A DNA stretch of 64,000 nt from Halobacteroides halobius DSM 5150 (GTDB taxonomy: Bacteria; Bacillota; Halanaerobiia; Halobacteroidales; Halobacteroidaceae), in NCBI RefSeq assembly GCF_000328625.1, contig NC_019978.1:2046001-2110000 (forward strand). Reading direction: 5' to 3'. The translations under genes and the position numbers were made by a program. Below, piece by piece: positions 12,945 through 22,055 of this stretch. The notes beneath the pieces were generated by a model that was not told where the DNA came from, searched no databases, and saw nothing but the letters and a program-made list of their open reading frames with translations. How positions within the stretch are numbered: position 1 is the first letter of the stretch; each line of letters opens with the position of its first letter.

Positions 12945-12992
12945 AAATCAATAAAGAAAGCAGCTTGGAATATATTCCAAGCTGCTTTCTTT
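12945..12992 (-). terminator. Bidirectional-looking terminator, perfect 40-nt palindrome
   Basis: Positions 12953-12992 form a perfect inverted repeat that begins inside the stop codon of the 99-aa gene at 12991 and ends in T-runs on both strands. It separates that gene from mltG. Confidence 0.85.
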
Positions 12993-13290
12993 ATGCTATT
13001 TCTTCTAGTTTTGTGCCATCCTTAATATGTATATTAGCCTTATTAATTACTGTAATCACAACTGCCTTAAACTCCCTCACTTCAATAATTATAGCCAGGT
13101 TATGCTCTTGATCTATAATAGCCACTTCTTCTCCTGTATTATTATACTCTAACAACTTATGGTCTAAGCTTAAAACAATTGCAGCTACTAATTCCTCATC
13201 AACTTCACGTTCTTTCATTCTTTCTAAGGCATGGGTTGTACCTTCAACTCGAAAACACTTCCCATTTAACATAAATTCCGATAATAACAT
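12991..13290 (-). CDS. DUF4258-like hypothetical protein
   Basis: A 99-aa protein containing HALERMKEREVDEELVAAIV followed by beta-strand segments (EEVAIIDQEHNLAIIIEVRE, VVITVINK). This pattern resembles DUF4258, a RelE/BrnT-like small fold found free-standing or as a toxin. No partner antitoxin gene is adjacent, so a toxin role is not supported. GGGGGG precedes the ATG at good spacing. Function unknown. Confidence 0.65.
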   Translation of the reverse strand: MLLSEFMLNGKCFRVEGTTHALERMKEREVDEELVAAIVLSLDHKLLEYNNTGEEVAIIDQEHNLAIIIEVREFKAVVITVINKANIHIKDGTKLEEIA

Positions 13291-13377: not shown

Positions 13378-13647
13378 TTACTCTTCCAGTTCTTTCTGTA
13401 GTTTAACTAATTCTTCTTCATCTACAACTGGACGATAAGCTTTATTTCCTTCCTTATCTTTTACTGTCTTTAAGGCATATCCTTCTCCTACTTCTTCATC
13501 TTCATCCATTAAAATCAGATAAGTAGTATTATCTACATCTAAACTAGTTACTACCTCAAATCTTCTTTTTTTACCATTAGCCTCTTCTAAAATAACTATT
13601 CCATCTTCTTCATTAATTAATTTAATTATTCCTTCTTCTTTTGCCAT
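13378..13647 (-). CDS. DUF1292 family protein (YrzB-like)
   Basis: An acidic 89-aa protein of the DUF1292 family (IIKLINEEDGIVILEEANGK, YLILMDEDEEVGEGYALK). I start it at ATG 13645-13647, six bases after AGAGGTG; an upstream GTG would overlap that site. Found next to ruvX as in Bacillus (alaS-yrzL-yrrK-yrzB). The biochemical role is unknown. Confidence 0.88.
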   Translation of the reverse strand: MAKEEGIIKLINEEDGIVILEEANGKKRRFEVVTSLDVDNTTYLILMDEDEEVGEGYALKTVKDKEGNKAYRPVVDEEELVKLQKELEE

Positions 13648-13698
13648 TACTATCACCTCTTACTTATTATTAAAATAATTATAGTTTCTATGCACAAA

Positions 13699-14106
13699 TT
13701 ATAAACTATCTAAATAATTTTGTAAAATTACTACAGCAGCCATTTTGTCAATAACTTTCTTTCTCTTTTTTCGACTTAAATCTGCATCTATTAAAGTCTT
13801 TTCTGCTGCTTTAGTAGATAAGCGTTCATCCCAGGTTATAACAGGGAGATCAATGGTTTCTTTTAGTTTATCTACAAATGATAATACTTTTTGAGCTCTG
13901 GGCCCTATAGTTCCGTTCATATTTTTAGGAAGGCCTACTACTACTTTCTCCACATTATATTTATCTATTAGTGACGCTATATAATCTAACTTTTCTTGGC
14001 TGGATTCTTCTTCAACTATAGTCTTTCCTTGAGCTGTCCATCCTAACGGGTCACTTACTGCAACTCCTGTTCTTTTATCTCCTACATCTAAACCCATAAT
14101 CCTCAT
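13699..14106 (-). CDS. ruvX: Putative Holliday junction resolvase YqgF/RuvX (pre-16S rRNA nuclease)
   Basis: RNase H-fold nuclease of about 135 aa. [19 protein letters not shown] contains the first catalytic aspartate, [17 protein letters not shown] the glutamate-region loop, and [15 protein letters not shown] the later acidic motif. Family members process the 5' end of 16S rRNA (E. coli) and have been proposed to cut Holliday junctions. I chose ATG 14104-14106; a GTG four codons upstream has its Shine-Dalgarno too close. It follows the baseplate J-like gene almost without a gap. Confidence 0.93.
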
Positions 14107-14114
14107 AATCAAAC

Positions 14115-15629
14115 TCACTCCTTAACTGGTTCTTTAATAACCACATTAAATGCAAATCTAAACTGGGGCAGATTAACTTGGTTAGCTGGTTTAATTTGAT
14201 AAGTTGATAATTCTGGCTTATTATTTAAAATTTCTTTAGCAATTTTAACTCTTTTCCCGATAATTCTTTCTATAATCTCTTTCTTATCTATTTTACCAAT
14301 AATTTGTCCTCTAGCTTTAATATTAAGCTTAATTTCTTGGGGGCTTATTTGAGTCAATTCTAATCTTTGAATAGTAATTTCAGGAGACTTTAATTTAAAA
14401 TCATCTCTTAAACTCTCTTTATATGATTTAAAAACTAAAGCAGTTAACCCCTCCTTTTTTACCGCAAAACTTGTAGCTTTAATACTACCTGTGATCGCTA
14501 ATTGCTTAGCTATATCTCCCACTTTTAGTTTGTGATTTAATATCGTTTCACTAAATTGAATATCATCTTTAAAACAAATTACTGTTGCTGGAAACAGATT
14601 ACTTATTCGTTGGCGTGCTTTCTTTAATAACACACTTTTAGCTTTTTTTAATCCGCGCTTAATATCTTGGTGAGTGATAACTTTAACTATACTATTTTCT
14701 CCTCCAGTAGTAGATTCTGGATTAATAATCTTAACTGGGTAGGAATTATTAACAAATTGAACGATTCTAGCTTTACTAACATTCCCTACTTCTCCTTTAT
14801 GTATAGCTTCAATATTAACTTCTGCTCTTCCTGCTTTTACTCCTACTACCATCTCCATAAACTTATTTACCTTAGCACTAGGTACTGTTACTTCTTCTAG
14901 TGTTCTAAATTGAACTCCATTTCTAGTAGCTACTTTTGTTCCTTGAGGAATAGTAATCTTCCGTCGTTGGTCATTAATTAAAGCTAAAAAACCAGTTGCT
15001 TTACTAACTCCTATCTCTTTATGTCCCGTAGCCTTAACTTTTATTTGCTCCTTTAGCTTAACTTGCTTTTTTATTAAAGGAATCATTTTAGATTGATAAT
15101 TAATATTTTCCAATCTTTTTAATCCTTTAACTTGAATAGATATTGGCTTCTTTTCTAAAACAGGAACAAGGTCTATCGTAATTAAAGGAATAGTAAAATA
15201 AAACCAAACTCCAGCTGCTACTATTATTAAGATAAATATAAGAGCAAGTTTACCAAAAACGCTTGATTTTGATCTAGAATTATTTGAAGGTTGGTCCTCT
15301 ACAGCAACTATAGCTGCTTGTTCTTGAGTTGCTGCAACCTCTATCTGACTTCCTGTTTGAACTTCAAATTCTTCCAGAGAGGAATATACTAAAAATCCTA
15401 CTTCAACCAATAAATTCTTAATTTTTTCTATATCAGTTATAAATATTAACTCTTTTTCCTCTTTTTGAGCATGAGATTTAATCAACTCAATATTAATTTG
15501 TCCACTAAAAATAGGTGACTTATGATGAATAATAATCACTATTTTATCTTTAGGATCTGATTTAATCCTTTCTAATAAAGAGCTAAGTGGTTCATCAGGG
15601 TCTATATAGATTTTATTATAGTCTTGCAA
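14115..15629 (-). CDS. Bitopic membrane protein with Rossmann-like N-domain and baseplate J-like outer region
   Basis: A 504-aa protein I cannot name. Residues 1-90 look like a small alpha/beta domain ([35 protein letters not shown]) of a kind I recall from similar one-pass proteins. An acidic/Ser-rich linker leads to one membrane helix at about 126-148, then about 350 residues of mostly beta structure outside; [20 protein letters not shown] and the repeated [20 protein letters not shown] recall the baseplate J/gp47 fold. It starts at TTG 15627-15629 after GGAGGTGATTAATC. It sits 18 bp after the FtsA-like gene, like PilN after PilM. No other phage genes are near. Confidence 0.7.
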
Positions 15630-15647
15630 GATTAATCACCTCCATTC

Positions 15648-16913
15648 TTATCTGCCTATATTAACTGATAACTTATCCCATATATTTCGTTCATATACCT
15701 CTTGGATCATTGTAGCCTGTAAAGCCAAACTTTTAGGGGTTACATTCTCAGCTCCTGTTAGTCTTCCTATCCTATCTTTAACTCCAGTTATATCCTCTGC
15801 AGATAACAATTTAATATCAGGTTTTCTAAAAAACGGAAGATTCTCATACATTCTACGTTTTTGAATCCCATCAAATAAACCATTTAAAGAACTTCCTCCA
15901 CCACATAAATATATTTTTTGGGGTAAAGCCTCTGACTGGGCCAACTTATCTAAGGCTACTTCTATTCCTTCATATAATAAATTAAGGTCACTCTTTAATA
16001 ATTTGTCTATTTCTTCTGTTTCATTTAACTTTCCAGTTGAATAAGCTATCTTTAATTCTTCTGCTTTTTGTAAAGAGAGATTAAACTCCCTAGCTAAAGT
16101 TTTTGTAAAAGCTCGTCCAGCTAAACTAAACATCTTTGTTCCTTCAATACCACCATTTCGAATTAAAGCAATATCAGTTGTCCCTCCACCAATATCAATA
16201 ACTATAGCCCCAAACTCATATGCCTCATTACTCATAATACTTTTAGCAATTGCAAATGGTTCCGCAATTATTCCAACTAATTTATAACCTAATCTATCAG
16301 CTATTGTTTCTAAAGCTCCAATATGAACCAGCGGAGCAAAAGTATTAAATGCTGTTAATTCTAAATTCTTCCCTTGAAATTCTTCCGGATTTGTGATTTT
16401 ATAACCATCAAGCTTGATTTCAACAATCGATGAATTAATCAATTGTACTTTGACATTATCCAACCCTGTATCTGCTAATAACTCTTCTCTAGCTTGATTA
16501 AGAGCCTTTTTTTGGGTTTCTTGGGCCAAATTATCTAATTCTTTTCTTTTAAGCTTTCTTTTAGAAAACAAGCGTTTATGATTTAAAGTAGTTACATCTC
16601 CTTTAACAAATTCACCAGCAATACCAATCACAATTTCTTCTGGCTCTACCTCTGCCATCTCTGTAGCTTCTTCAATTGCTTCATAACTCTTTTTTATTAC
16701 ATCCTCAATATTAGAAACTGCTCCTCCATCCATATTAGAATAAGACTGCTGTACTCGTCCATAACCTATTATCTCACAAATATATTGCTCATCAAACTTA
16801 ACTACTACTGCTTTAACATACTCTGTTCCTATATCCAAGGCAATTCGATATTGATAATCTTCAGAATCTGACTTATTAAAAACATTATTTAATATGGATA
16901 AAATGTTTAACAC
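15648..16913 (-). CDS. FtsA/PilM-like actin-fold ATPase
   Basis: 421 aa with the actin/Hsp70 ATPase signature: phosphate-1 YRIALDIGTEYVKAVVV (about 22-38), phosphate-2 VIDIGGGTTDIALI (238-251) and the adenosine motif IYLCGGGSSLNGLF near the C-terminal third. An inserted subdomain with SHS2-like character (VEPEEIVIGIAGEFVKGD) places it with FtsA/PilM. It is not ordinary ftsA: no ftsZ is adjacent and no clear C-terminal amphipathic membrane helix is seen. The start is ambiguous: GTG 16911-16913 abuts the G-run AGGGGG, whereas ATT three codons in has the usual spacing. Likely partner: the bitopic protein at 14115-15629. Confidence 0.8.
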   Translation of the reverse strand: MLNILSILNNVFNKSDSEDYQYRIALDIGTEYVKAVVVKFDEQYICEIIGYGRVQQSYSNMDGGAVSNIEDVIKKSYEAIEEATEMAEVEPEEIVIGIAGEFVKGDVTTLNHKRLFSKRKLKRKELDNLAQETQKKALNQAREELLADTGLDNVKVQLINSSIVEIKLDGYKITNPEEFQGKNLELTAFNTFAPLVHIGALETIADRLGYKLVGIIAEPFAIAKSIMSNEAYEFGAIVIDIGGGTTDIALIRNGGIEGTKMFSLAGRAFTKTLAREFNLSLQKAEELKIAYSTGKLNETEEIDKLLKSDLNLLYEGIEVALDKLAQSEALPQKIYLCGGGSSLNGLFDGIQKRRMYENLPFFRKPDIKLLSAEDITGVKDRIGRLTGAENVTPKSLALQATMIQEVYERNIWDKLSVNIGR

Positions 16914-16972
16914 CCCCTGCTATTACAAAATTATCCATAAAACAATATTTTCCTTCTTTTCAGCAGGGAAAT

Positions 16973-19117
16973 CTAATTTTTTTTGCTAACTAATACTATA
17001 TATAATAGAGTAAAAATAGGAAATAACAATAAAGTAGCTGCAGCAACTACTCCTGAATCATTAACTAACATGGTCACTGTACTACCAACAATTGAACCTC
17101 TAAATCCAGCTGCTAAGCTTGGATAATTAATAATCAAATCCCGAATCTTTCCTTGCGGCCATTTAAATAAAATTATTAGAATAATCACAAAAGCAAGTAA
17201 TACCCGACTCCAGATTGTCCATCTTAATAATTTTAAGTTCATCTGTAACTTACGAGATATAATTACTAATAATTCACTAATTCCTTCTTCTTTAATCACT
17301 ACTAAAGTATGGGCTAAATGTGTATTGGTCTTTAATCCTCCATAAAAATCTATTAAAATAATTATTAAAACTGTTCCCAACAAAACTAAACTTATTTTCA
17401 ATAATATCTTCCAGTCAAAATTATATCCCTTTAAATTAAAATAAGTAACACTACAGGCAAGAGTAGCAGTAATTACCCCCCCAAAATTGGCCCCTGCTTT
17501 AGGATATCCAACCGTTAATACTAGCAAAATAAATAATATTAGCATGTGCTTATTAACCAGTCTTTCTTTAAGCTCCTGTAGTCCAGTTAATCCAATAATA
17601 CCCGCTCCAATTAAAACCCCCATAAACTCATTTCCTATCCCATAAAATCTAGCTCCTATAACCGGAGAATAACCTAACACAGATAATTTTGTCCAATCAG
17701 CACCACGCCAAAGATCAAAAGTTAATAAAGTAGTAATTACCAAAGTAGGCACTAAAAAAGGTAATAATTTATTCTCTTGCTGAATCGTATAATGGGCCAA
17801 GAATAAACTGATTATTAACCAACTACTGATGGCAAAATAAATATTTTGGTCAAGAAAATAACTTGACAACAAAAAACAAGAAGGGATCCATAATAAACTA
17901 ATCAATAAATAAATACTAATCCGCTCTAATAAATTATTATCTCTATTATAAATAAAGATAAAAGCTACTAAACCTAATGTAATAATCTGTAATAGAATAA
18001 ATCCTTTAACTACTATTGGACGCCACTTAAAAGTTCTCTTTATTTTATTATTTAATTGACTTAAATAATCTAATCCCTTATCGGACTTAACACTAGTCAT
18101 CCCACGCCCAGTAAATTGACCCTTATTAGAATTTATGAGACTATAATAAATAGTTGGTGCTATATCAAGACTTGTAATTAACCCCGTTCTTCTTGTACTA
18201 CCAGAAGTTAATAAACCATCCTTTATTGTAGGCCCAACTAAAGTGGCCAAAGTTAATTTATTACCGCTAGCTGGAGTTGGAATAACAACCAATAGATAAT
18301 CTTTATTAAAATCCAACTCTTTTACTATCAACCCTAATAATCTATCAACTCGTTTAATTGCTTTTTTCTTAGCTTGCTTAAACTTTTTAGTAGTTAATAA
18401 CTGTCTTACTGCTTCAATCCGTGATGTATCACCCGATTCTACAACTAATAGATCACTCGTATCGAAAAATTTATTAAATTGTTTCATTAAATAATCATGG
18501 TCAGTTATATAACCAGAGGGATATTGATCAGTTTGACGATACATTTTCTGACCAACATCCCCCTGCTTAACTATACCATATTTATTGATCCCGATTAAAG
18601 CAACCTGTCTTCTGGCTTGATTCCATATATCTGCGTTACCTAACACTGCAACATCTAAATTAGCTTGATTTAATAAAGTGGTTAAATGACCAATCTCGGC
18701 TTGATAGGAACTGGATTGATTGGCATCTCTTATACTTTTTAACCGCAAATTAACAATATCCGCCTCTGTATTTAAATGACCTACTCGCCTAATATAAATA
18801 TCCCTTACTTTAGTTCCCTGATATTCTTCGGTTAAATTAAAGTTTAAATAACCTCCCTTATCAACTCTAGCTCTAGTACCAGCACCAATAGTTAAATAAC
18901 TATCATCTGGCTCTAACTCTCCAGCAGTTCTCATATTCATTAAGCCCACGGCTCCATTAGTAATTAGTTGCTCTAAATTCGGAGTTTTAATCTCTTCTAT
19001 CTCCGCTAAGCTAACTCCATCCATAATAAAAAGTATAAATCTACTATCTGTAGCTTGAACTAAAGGGGAGGATAAAACTATAAACAAAAGAGTTATAAAA
19101 ATAATATATCTCTTCAT
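16973..19117 (-). CDS. Alkaline-phosphatase-superfamily-like exported domain fused to multi-spanning membrane domain
   Basis: 714 aa, function unknown. A signal peptide (residues 1-22) is followed by a domain resembling the alkaline phosphatase/phosphodiesterase fold: metal-ligand-like FIMDGVS (Asp33), TPNLEQLITNGAVG, then PDDSYLTIGAG where the nucleophile would lie. Later VGPTIKDG, STRRTGLITSLDIAPTI matches a recurring pattern of this group. The C-terminal half has about ten helices and a conserved-looking GARFYGIGNEFMG segment near residue 490. It lies between ireB and the FtsA-like gene. An envelope or lipid-head-group role is plausible but inferred. Confidence 0.75.
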   Translation of the reverse strand: MKRYIIFITLLFIVLSSPLVQATDSRFILFIMDGVSLAEIEEIKTPNLEQLITNGAVGLMNMRTAGELEPDDSYLTIGAGTRARVDKGGYLNFNLTEEYQGTKVRDIYIRRVGHLNTEADIVNLRLKSIRDANQSSSYQAEIGHLTTLLNQANLDVAVLGNADIWNQARRQVALIGINKYGIVKQGDVGQKMYRQTDQYPSGYITDHDYLMKQFNKFFDTSDLLVVESGDTSRIEAVRQLLTTKKFKQAKKKAIKRVDRLLGLIVKELDFNKDYLLVVIPTPASGNKLTLATLVGPTIKDGLLTSGSTRRTGLITSLDIAPTIYYSLINSNKGQFTGRGMTSVKSDKGLDYLSQLNNKIKRTFKWRPIVVKGFILLQIITLGLVAFIFIYNRDNNLLERISIYLLISLLWIPSCFLLSSYFLDQNIYFAISSWLIISLFLAHYTIQQENKLLPFLVPTLVITTLLTFDLWRGADWTKLSVLGYSPVIGARFYGIGNEFMGVLIGAGIIGLTGLQELKERLVNKHMLILFILLVLTVGYPKAGANFGGVITATLACSVTYFNLKGYNFDWKILLKISLVLLGTVLIIILIDFYGGLKTNTHLAHTLVVIKEEGISELLVIISRKLQMNLKLLRWTIWSRVLLAFVIILIILFKWPQGKIRDLIINYPSLAAGFRGSIVGSTVTMLVNDSGVVAAATLLLFPIFTLLYIVLVSKKN

Positions 19118-19132
19118 TTAACCACTCCAAAC

Positions 19133-19384
19133 TTAATCCTTTAAATAGTTTTTTACTAACTCCTCAATAATTTCATCTCTTTCAAACTGCCTAATCTTAC
19201 TTCGAGCATTTTGATGACTAGTAATATATGCCGGATCTCCAGAAAGAATATAACCAACTATTTGATTAATTGGATTATAATCTCTTTCTTCTAAAGCTTG
19301 ATAAACTTCTTTTAAAACCTTAGCTACTTTACTTTCTTCTTCCTTATCAACTTTAAACATCATAGTCTTATCGAAATCATTCAT
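19133..19384 (-). CDS. ireB: IreB family regulatory phosphoprotein
   Basis: An 83-aa IreB (DUF965/YrzL) protein. The N-terminus [11 protein letters not shown] carries the threonine (Thr7) matching the region phosphorylated by the Ser/Thr kinase IreK in Enterococcus, where IreB restrains cephalosporin resistance. [20 protein letters not shown] is the family core. It follows alaS by 46 bp, a pairing conserved across firmicutes. No kinase gene is in the window. Confidence 0.95.
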
Positions 19385-19430: not shown

Positions 19431-22055
19431 TTATACATTGGATCCAATAATTTCTTGGGCTTTTTCTAAGGCAGCCGCTAACTGCTCTGGCTTACTACCA
19501 CCTGCTTGAGCCATATTAGGGCGACCTCCTCCCCCTCCACCAGCAACTTTAGCAACTTCACCAATTATCTCTCCAGCGTGATATCCCTCTTTAACTAAAT
19601 CATCAGTCACTACCGCAACAAATAATACTTTATTCTCTAACTTAGAACCTAAAACAATTATTCCTGAATCTAATTCTGTTTTTAATTCATCTGCCATTTT
19701 TCGCAGTCCAGCTGCATCTAAACTATCTACACTATGCAAAATAGTTGGTACTCCATTTATCTTCTCAACTTGAGCAACTAAATCTTTAGTTTGAGAAGCA
19801 GCTAATTTATCTTTTAAACTTTCAATTTCTCCTTCTAATTTTTTAATTTGATTTTGTAGCAATTCTACTTTAGATACTACTTCAGATGGATTAGCTTTTA
19901 ACTTATTAGCTATTTTTACAATGCTATCCTCTAATTGATTGACATGCTTTAGGGCTTCTTCTCCTGTTACAGCTTCAATTCTTCTTACTCCAGCTGCTAT
20001 ACCAGATTCTCCTACTATTTTAAATTGCCCAATTTCTCCTGTAGTTCTAACATGAGTTCCACCACATAATTCCTTACTATACTCACCTGCTTTTACTAAT
20101 CTTACTTGCTCTCCATATTTATCACCAAATAAAGCAGTTGCTCCTACAGCTTTAGCTTCTTCTAAATCCATTTTCTCAGCTTTAACACTTATATTTTTTA
20201 AAATATAATTATTAACTTGCTTTTCAATAGCAGCCAGCTCTTCTTCTGTTACAGCTTCAAAATGAGAAAAATCAAACCTTAATTTATCAGGAGTAACTAA
20301 TGAACCAGACTGATTAACATGATCACCTAAAATTTCCTTTAGGGCTTTATGTAACAAATGAGTAGCTGTATGATTACGAGCAGTAGCTTTTCTTGATTGT
20401 TGATTAATACTGGCCTTTACTTTAGTACCTACTTTTACTTCTCCCTCTTCTAGTTGAATATGATGCACAATCAACTCAGCAATTTCTTCTGTCTCTAATA
20501 CTTTAGCCTGTCCAGAAGCAAAACTAATCATTCCTTGGTCACCAACTTGGCCCCCACCTTCAGCATAAAAAGGAGTTTTAGCTAGTACCAATTTAGCCTT
20601 TTGACCAGCACCTATTTCCTTAACTTCTTCTTCATCTTGAACTAGACTTAAAACTTTAGAGTCTACTTGATAATTGTCATAACCTACAAATTGTGTATTA
20701 CCTATTTGATCTCTAATTGCTTTAAATAATTCTAATTGGCCATGTCCTTGATCATAGTCTTCTCTGGCCTCTCTAGCTCGCTTACGTTGTTCTTCCATTG
20801 CTTCCTCAAAACCAATTTCATCAATTACAAATCCTTTTTCAGCAGCAATTTCTTTGGTTAGTTCTTTAGGAAATCCATACGTATCATACAAAGTAAAGAC
20901 TTGTTTTCCTGGAATTTTAGATTTGTCCTTTTTTTGCAATTCATCAATTAAATCTTCTAAAATATCCATCCCTTGCTCTAAGGTTTCTTGAAACCTAAGT
21001 TCCTCTTGCTTAATAATCTTCTCAATTTGTTCCTGTTTAGATGCTAAAGCAGTATAGTGATCCCCCATAATTTCTACTACCACCGCAACAATAGTATGTA
21101 AAAAAGGGATCTTTAAATCAAGCATCTTAGCATACCTTACAGCCCTTCTTAATAATCTTCTGACAACATAACCTCTTCCTTCATTAGAAGGTAATACACC
21201 ATCAGTAATTGCAAAACTTACACTCCGAATATGATCAGCTATTACCTTAATTGCTACATCACTTTCCTGGGCTTGACCATACTCAACACCACAATGAGAT
21301 GTAATATATTCAATAATTGGCATAAATAAGTCCGTCTCAAAGTTAGTTGGTTTATCCTGTAATAGTGATGCTAATCGCTCTAATCCAGCTCCTGTATCTA
21401 TATTCTTTTGTGGTAAGTCTAAATATTCGCCAGTTTCAGTTTTATTATACTGTGTAAATACTAAATTCCAAATCTCTAAATAACGATCACAATCACAACC
21501 TAATTCACAACCTTCTTCACAACCATAATCTTTACCTCGATCATAATGAATCTCAGAACATGGTCCACAAGGGCCAGTTCCAATCTCCCAAAAATTCTCA
21601 TCTTTACCCATTCTAATAATTCTATCAGTTGGGATCCCTATTCTCTTGTGCCAAATATTAAAAGCATCATCATCATCTTTATAAATAGATATTAAAAATC
21701 TATCCGAATCTAAATTCAACTTCTCTGTTAAAAATTGATAACTCCATTGAATAGCTTCTTCTTTAAAGTAGTCTCCAAACGAAAAATTACCTAACATTTC
21801 AAAAAAAGTTTGATGTCTAGCCGTCTGACCGACATTTTCAATATCATTAGTTCGAATACACTTTTGAGCAGTTACCACCCTTCTTTTAGGTGGAGTAGCA
21901 CTTCCAGAAAAATAATCCTTAAATGGTGCCATTCCTGCATTAATCCATAATAAAGTAGGATCATTTTGGGGCACTAATGGTGCACTAGGTAATACTTTAT
22001 GGTCTTGTTCTGCAAAAAAATCTAAAAATCTTTGCCGAATTTCACTACTTTTCAT
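19431..22055 (-). CDS. alaS: Alanyl-tRNA synthetase
   Basis: 874 aa, full length. Class II catalytic domain at the N-terminus (INAGMAPFKDYFSG, KCIRTNDIENVG, RHQTFFEMLGNFSFGDYFK), editing domain with HTATHLLHKAL and ELCGGTHV, and a C-terminal DHHA1 domain ending in GGGGGGRPNMAQAGG. It attaches alanine to tRNA-Ala and clears mischarged Ser/Gly. No T-box is seen in the 77 bp upstream. Confidence 0.98.
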   Translation of the reverse strand: MKSSEIRQRFLDFFAEQDHKVLPSAPLVPQNDPTLLWINAGMAPFKDYFSGSATPPKRRVVTAQKCIRTNDIENVGQTARHQTFFEMLGNFSFGDYFKEEAIQWSYQFLTEKLNLDSDRFLISIYKDDDDAFNIWHKRIGIPTDRIIRMGKDENFWEIGTGPCGPCSEIHYDRGKDYGCEEGCELGCDCDRYLEIWNLVFTQYNKTETGEYLDLPQKNIDTGAGLERLASLLQDKPTNFETDLFMPIIEYITSHCGVEYGQAQESDVAIKVIADHIRSVSFAITDGVLPSNEGRGYVVRRLLRRAVRYAKMLDLKIPFLHTIVAVVVEIMGDHYTALASKQEQIEKIIKQEELRFQETLEQGMDILEDLIDELQKKDKSKIPGKQVFTLYDTYGFPKELTKEIAAEKGFVIDEIGFEEAMEEQRKRAREAREDYDQGHGQLELFKAIRDQIGNTQFVGYDNYQVDSKVLSLVQDEEEVKEIGAGQKAKLVLAKTPFYAEGGGQVGDQGMISFASGQAKVLETEEIAELIVHHIQLEEGEVKVGTKVKASINQQSRKATARNHTATHLLHKALKEILGDHVNQSGSLVTPDKLRFDFSHFEAVTEEELAAIEKQVNNYILKNISVKAEKMDLEEAKAVGATALFGDKYGEQVRLVKAGEYSKELCGGTHVRTTGEIGQFKIVGESGIAAGVRRIEAVTGEEALKHVNQLEDSIVKIANKLKANPSEVVSKVELLQNQIKKLEGEIESLKDKLAASQTKDLVAQVEKINGVPTILHSVDSLDAAGLRKMADELKTELDSGIIVLGSKLENKVLFVAVVTDDLVKEGYHAGEIIGEVAKVAGGGGGGRPNMAQAGGSKPEQLAAALEKAQEIIGSNV

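Follow-up and report, generated by a model that had tools for sequence, protein, structure and literature searches.

The window analysed here is a 64,000-nt stretch of the complete 2.65-Mb genome of the salt-loving bacterium Halobacteroides halobius DSM 5150, and it carries, in minus-strand order, alaS, ireB, three genes that we call A, B and C, ruvX, and the DUF1292, DUF4258 and mltG genes. The conserved run alaS-ireB-A-B-C-ruvX-DUF1292 starts with alaS (19431-22055), followed by ireB (19133-19384; PF06135, 3e-40), A (16973-19117, 714 aa), B (15648-16913, 421 aa), C (14115-15629, 504 aa), ruvX (13699-14118; PF03652, 3e-49) and, 3' of ruvX, the DUF1292 gene (13378-13656), all on the minus strand. 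ireB and ruvX served as the upstream and downstream anchors of a slot that holds A, B and C. A DUF4258-like gene (12991-13290, minus strand), located between DUF1292 and mltG, is kept across much of the class. A sequence-only reading of this DNA had described three co-directional, closely spaced genes between ireB and ruvX, and the open reading frames, strand and order were as it stated; the gaps it gave as 18 bp and about 60 bp measured 18 nt (B-C) and 59 nt (A-B). The remaining gaps were 46 nt (alaS-ireB) and 15 nt (ireB-A). With the GTG start of ruvX (14118), C and ruvX overlap by 4 nt; with an internal ATG start, they lie about 8 nt apart. This tight spacing suggests that alaS-ireB-A-B-C-ruvX is probably a single transcription unit. 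Promoter and terminator scans returned counts indistinguishable from those in shuffled sequence. Gene C starts with TTG, preceded by the ribosome-binding site GGAGGTG, and gene B starts with GTG. Because the ribosome-binding site of B is badly placed, its exact N-terminus is uncertain; the orthologues nonetheless align there.

C was confirmed as a one-pass protein with a large outer domain. Its structure model (pLDDT 85) comprises an alpha/beta domain (residues 1-93), a linker, a single membrane helix (123-146) and the outer domain (205-503). The alpha/beta domain is STAS-like, a weak match (Z about 8) that was tied with other Rossmann-like folds. Over residues 205-503, C has the same fold as the phage baseplate wedge proteins gp6/gp47/J (phrog_6, PF04865), with Z scores up to 13.8; the overall rmsd of these alignments is large because the subdomain arrangement differs, and the barrel alone fits tightly. 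Against GlxA, the barrel gave a Z of 11.6 and 2.6 Å over 101 residues. In profile searches, C passed the Pfam Baseplate_J cut-off (23.3 against 21.1); 19 of 20 aligned C members matched this profile at E<=0.1, and all 20 matched phrog_6, annotated as 'baseplate wedge subunit'.

The wedge fold and the phrog_6 match raised the alternative that C is left over from a prophage or belongs to a contractile injection system, which we rejected as extremely improbable. The phage sheath domain PF04984 was found in none of the 31 relatives searched, while 3 of 14 control genomes were positive, and searches of 50,697 phage records and of viral contigs gave no match. Moreover, unlike the phage wedge proteins, C is encoded by the host at a fixed housekeeping locus across many families, with no tail genes, and is anchored in the membrane by a helix fused to a cytosolic domain. 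Given the missing sheath and the lack of a close phage relative in these searches, C uses the wedge fold in a host-encoded, membrane-anchored setting. Outside the phylum, C had no match in six named genomes, which were searched with no positive control.

B lies near FtsA, PilM and MreB in Pfam and NCBIfam, and its description as an FtsA/PilM-like ATPase was borne out, though it falls into a clade of its own. It passed Pfam PilM_2 (34.3, cut-off 27) and stayed below the curated NCBIfam models for ftsA (119.9 bits, cut-off 175.85) and pilM (37.8, cut-off 133); the strongest sequence matches were of the FtsA type (TIGR01174, E 1e-34; PDB 7q6f, 3e-19). In a maximum-likelihood tree, all B proteins, including the copies from the distant family f65, formed one clade (support 96/94) apart from the FtsA clade (99/99), from the PilM-type rows and from an FtsA-domain protein of about 720 aa, with the reservations that long branches meet, that support for the deeper branching is weak and that one row, pilM_G014, reads like MreB. 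On these sequence comparisons, the B proteins make up an actin-like ATPase clade of their own and are neither FtsA nor PilM. The ~720-aa FtsA-domain protein, itself neither FtsA nor B, occurs in most relatives (G000:C1:1231227-1232348 and counterparts). The nucleotide-site motifs of B (DIGT, DIGGGTTD and CGGGS) are intact and invariant or nearly so. An N-terminal amphipathic segment precedes the phosphate-1 loop in all families, as it does in the PilM-type rows, and a second, C-terminal amphipathic stretch has a high moment in the B proteins of the window's own family (f1) and a low one in other families. No match to B was found on plasmids.

A consists of a signal peptide (about 1-25), an outer domain (about 26-345) and about 11 membrane helices (366-714; model pLDDT 86). 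The outer domain adopts the alkaline phosphatase superfamily fold (Z 22.9, 2.9 Å over 243 residues), with cofactor-independent phosphoglycerate mutase as the nearest fold (Z 22.9) and YejM and LtaS also matched. The sequence-only reading had called A an exported, polytopic, phosphatase-like protein, and export, topology and superfamily fold all held; the metal ligands of active members are nevertheless missing. When the family was aligned to phosphoglycerate mutases from the same genomes, A kept the first aspartate (D33) and a DxxPT motif, had PTP in place of DHG and showed no conserved outer-domain histidine among 23 members, so that, of the metal ligands of active superfamily members (D..H, DH, H), all the histidines are gone. 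The sole conserved histidine is in the membrane part, where the invariant polar residues are R490, N496, E497, H600, R622, K623, N686 and D687. Judging from residue conservation, A is unlikely to be an active phosphatase, and its outer domain looks like a non-catalytic or altered one, perhaps a degenerate form of the phosphatase fold that serves in sensing or binding. YejM, which is a precedent for an envelope-regulating superfamily member, has been reported active with a partly different ligand set (PMC7576196). A shares the superfamily fold with YejM/PbgA, LtaS and other membrane-anchored members but differs from YejM and LtaS in lacking the conserved outer-domain histidines and the DHG motif, and in that its membrane helices, about 11 with invariant polar residues, come after the outer domain. 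Assignment of the membrane domain as an O-antigen ligase or polymerase gained no support from profile comparison (hhalign against Wzy_C proteins, 0.3% probability, E 0.17), and a match to a TAL effector repeat was a low-score repeat artefact. In 34 of 80 loci, most of them from genomes of the Desulfotomaculum type, A is no more than two genes away from a GT4 glycosyltransferase gene (for example, L124:6578-7735); given this frequent neighbour, A is probably a membrane protein of glycan or lipid envelope assembly.

Among 61 relatives, A was found in 29 and C in 21. All eight genomes of the window's family carry ireB-A-B-C-ruvX at this position, and the A-B-C order is kept, with some variants, in the class families f1, f4, f6 and f8; close relatives with named loci are Orenia, Natroniella and Halanaerobacter. 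Because it recurs throughout the family and elsewhere in the class, the arrangement is conserved far beyond chance and is not peculiar to one strain, which the sequence-only reading had named as a possible refutation; its picture of conserved envelope-type genes, three in number and constant in position, was supported. Variants were also observed. All five f2 genomes have A by itself in the slot, G023 has C alone, G053 has A-C with B gone, and G016 has A-C with just a 64-aa, stop-containing fragment of B (C16:6938-7117). In G014, B is split over two frames (C1:2137881-2139058). The fragment and the split gene suggest ongoing decay of B, although the latter may be a sequencing error instead.

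In other families of the phylum, the slot reads alaS-ireB-C-aldo/keto reductase-ruvX, or contains A-C or B-C, and Alkaliphilus-type Clostridia have ireB-A-aldo/keto reductase-ruvX. The aldo/keto reductase, which has Fer4 clusters, is a frequent occupant of the slot in other Firmicutes, where it separates C (or A) from ruvX (L196:4564-5526 and L161:10166-11122, among others). The ireB-ruvX slot is old, and the earlier description of the three genes as inserted misleads, since parts of the module are found at this very place in many other Firmicutes.

Of 299 genomes sampled evenly across the phylum, 185 had A, 51 had C at E<=0.001 (about 40 of these C matches being strong) and 6 had B. A is also encoded in Alkaliphilus, Thermoanaerobacter and Desulfotomaculum types, which ruled out a diderm-specific protein, and only 19 of 80 named A loci adjoin ireB. 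Five genomes (G069, G153, G186, G239 and G255) gave two to three A matches each, apparently distinct copies. B adjoined C in all 22 B-bearing genomes of the pooled class set and phylum sample, and the B-C pair was found within the class and also in f65, a single distant family that lacks A at the locus and encodes it elsewhere in the genome. A occurred without B and C in most genomes, and C mostly without B, so the independent occurrence that the sequence-only reading had named as a refutation was observed for A and C and not for B.

The same survey bears on whether the three proteins form a single envelope machine in which A is an enzyme or transporter positioned by B and C. The retained A-B-C order in f1, f4, f6 and f8 and the distant A gene of f65 fit such a machine, as does the enrichment of A among C-bearing genomes: A was found anywhere in the genome in 38 of 40 C-bearing genomes and 147 of 259 others (p = 8e-7, shared ancestry uncorrected), and by family in 17 of 19 and 57 of 100 (p = 0.009, the family total being approximate and shared ancestry again uncorrected). 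By contrast, f2 keeps A alone in the very same slot, most A genes lie away from the slot, and A occurs mostly without C or B and sometimes in two or three copies. We therefore consider a three-protein machine unlikely. The earlier idea of one system of three held for B and C, which adjoin in every B-bearing genome, but not for A, which is mostly without B and C, and C itself is mostly without B; the three are better viewed as a B-C pair and a semi-independent A.

Signalling through IreB and the PASTA kinase had also been proposed for the module. ireB is the immediate neighbour, mltG is nearby, and two reports describe control of peptidoglycan synthesis by IreB/ReoM in Listeria and Enterococcus (PMC7286690, PMC12077105). 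However, ireB is found in the slot whether or not the module is there, and all 31 relatives encode PASTA proteins, even those that lack the module, so the link comes down to proximity and we regard it as very unlikely.

The domain composition of C varied with the presence of B. C had its cytosolic domain in all 22 B-bearing genomes and in 19 of 25 B-less genomes (Fisher p = 0.023, ancestry uncorrected), and the six C copies without the domain were all in genomes without B. The N-terminal domain is the main cytosolic part of C, and B was found only where it is present. Domain-less copies include those of G157, inside the B-bearing family f65, of G023 in the class and of family f59; these losses look like separate events because the copies lie apart from one another in the C tree, the deep nodes of which are weak. 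C occurs in most lineages without B and therefore has some B-independent activity.

An adjacency such as that of B and C can persist in a conserved housekeeping block by descent alone, with no interaction, and an old neighbourhood without common function would account for the mosaic of A, AC, BC, ABC, C and A plus aldo/keto reductase, and for the metabolic-looking reductase with Fer4 clusters in the same slot. We find this reading doubtful, given that B never occurs without C and that B and the cytosolic domain of C are jointly absent in separate lineages. The best explanation overall, which we favour tentatively and with somewhat less than even confidence, is that B and C form a functional pair in which B positions an assembly of C, and that A is semi-independent.

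For this B-C pair, we infer binding between the two proteins, polymerisation of B, and a periplasmic assembly of C together with its role. The N-terminal amphipathic helix of B would hold the protein against the cytosolic side of the membrane, where B would bind the STAS-like cytosolic domain of C, much as PilM binds the PilN tail or FtsA the FtsN tail. ATP-dependent assembly of B may then set the place or the oligomeric state of the outer-domain assembly of C in the periplasm. A might work in the same compartment and would not be an obligatory part of the pair.

In PilM-PilN and FtsA-FtsN, the actin-like protein receives the cytosolic tail of its bitopic partner in the IA-IC cleft (PMC7613929). 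PilM-PilN resembles B-C in combining a cytosolic actin-like ATPase, an N-terminal amphipathic stretch and a gene beside that of the bitopic partner. Unlike PilM, B lies outside the PilM-type clade and far below the pilM cut-off, its candidate partner combines an outer domain of baseplate-wedge fold with a folded domain in the cytosol, and its neighbours are A and C, then ireB and ruvX, the locus being devoid of pilN, pilO and pilus genes; several of these genomes also encode separate PilM-type proteins. FtsA-FtsN shares the FtsA-type ATPase fold and the principle of a bitopic partner. B nevertheless differs from FtsA in its sub-threshold score and separate clade, and a canonical FtsA is present separately. 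The amphipathic segment of canonical FtsA is at the C-terminus, whereas that of B is N-terminal in all families and C-terminal in some only.

The finding is real and conserved, and a literature search found no paper describing the A-B-C set. A host-encoded, membrane-anchored ring or scaffold of the wedge fold in the periplasm, driven or positioned from the cytosolic side by a dedicated actin-like ATPase, would amount to a new kind of envelope-spanning machine, distinct from the divisome, the elongasome and the type IV pilus, a prospect that we rate as quite unlikely.

Cell division and pilus assembly are organised by actin-like ATPases that work with a bitopic envelope protein, and the B-C pair looks like a candidate new member among the machines that position cell-envelope proteins. 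B represents a further, unstudied clade of actin-like ATPases tied to one partner, C, which brings into a housekeeping operon a domain familiar chiefly from the baseplates of phage tails. The recurrent losses offer clean comparisons for working out which domain binds which. If B does bind C, diderm Firmicutes would have one more positioning system, and the wedge fold would have a use in the cell envelope.
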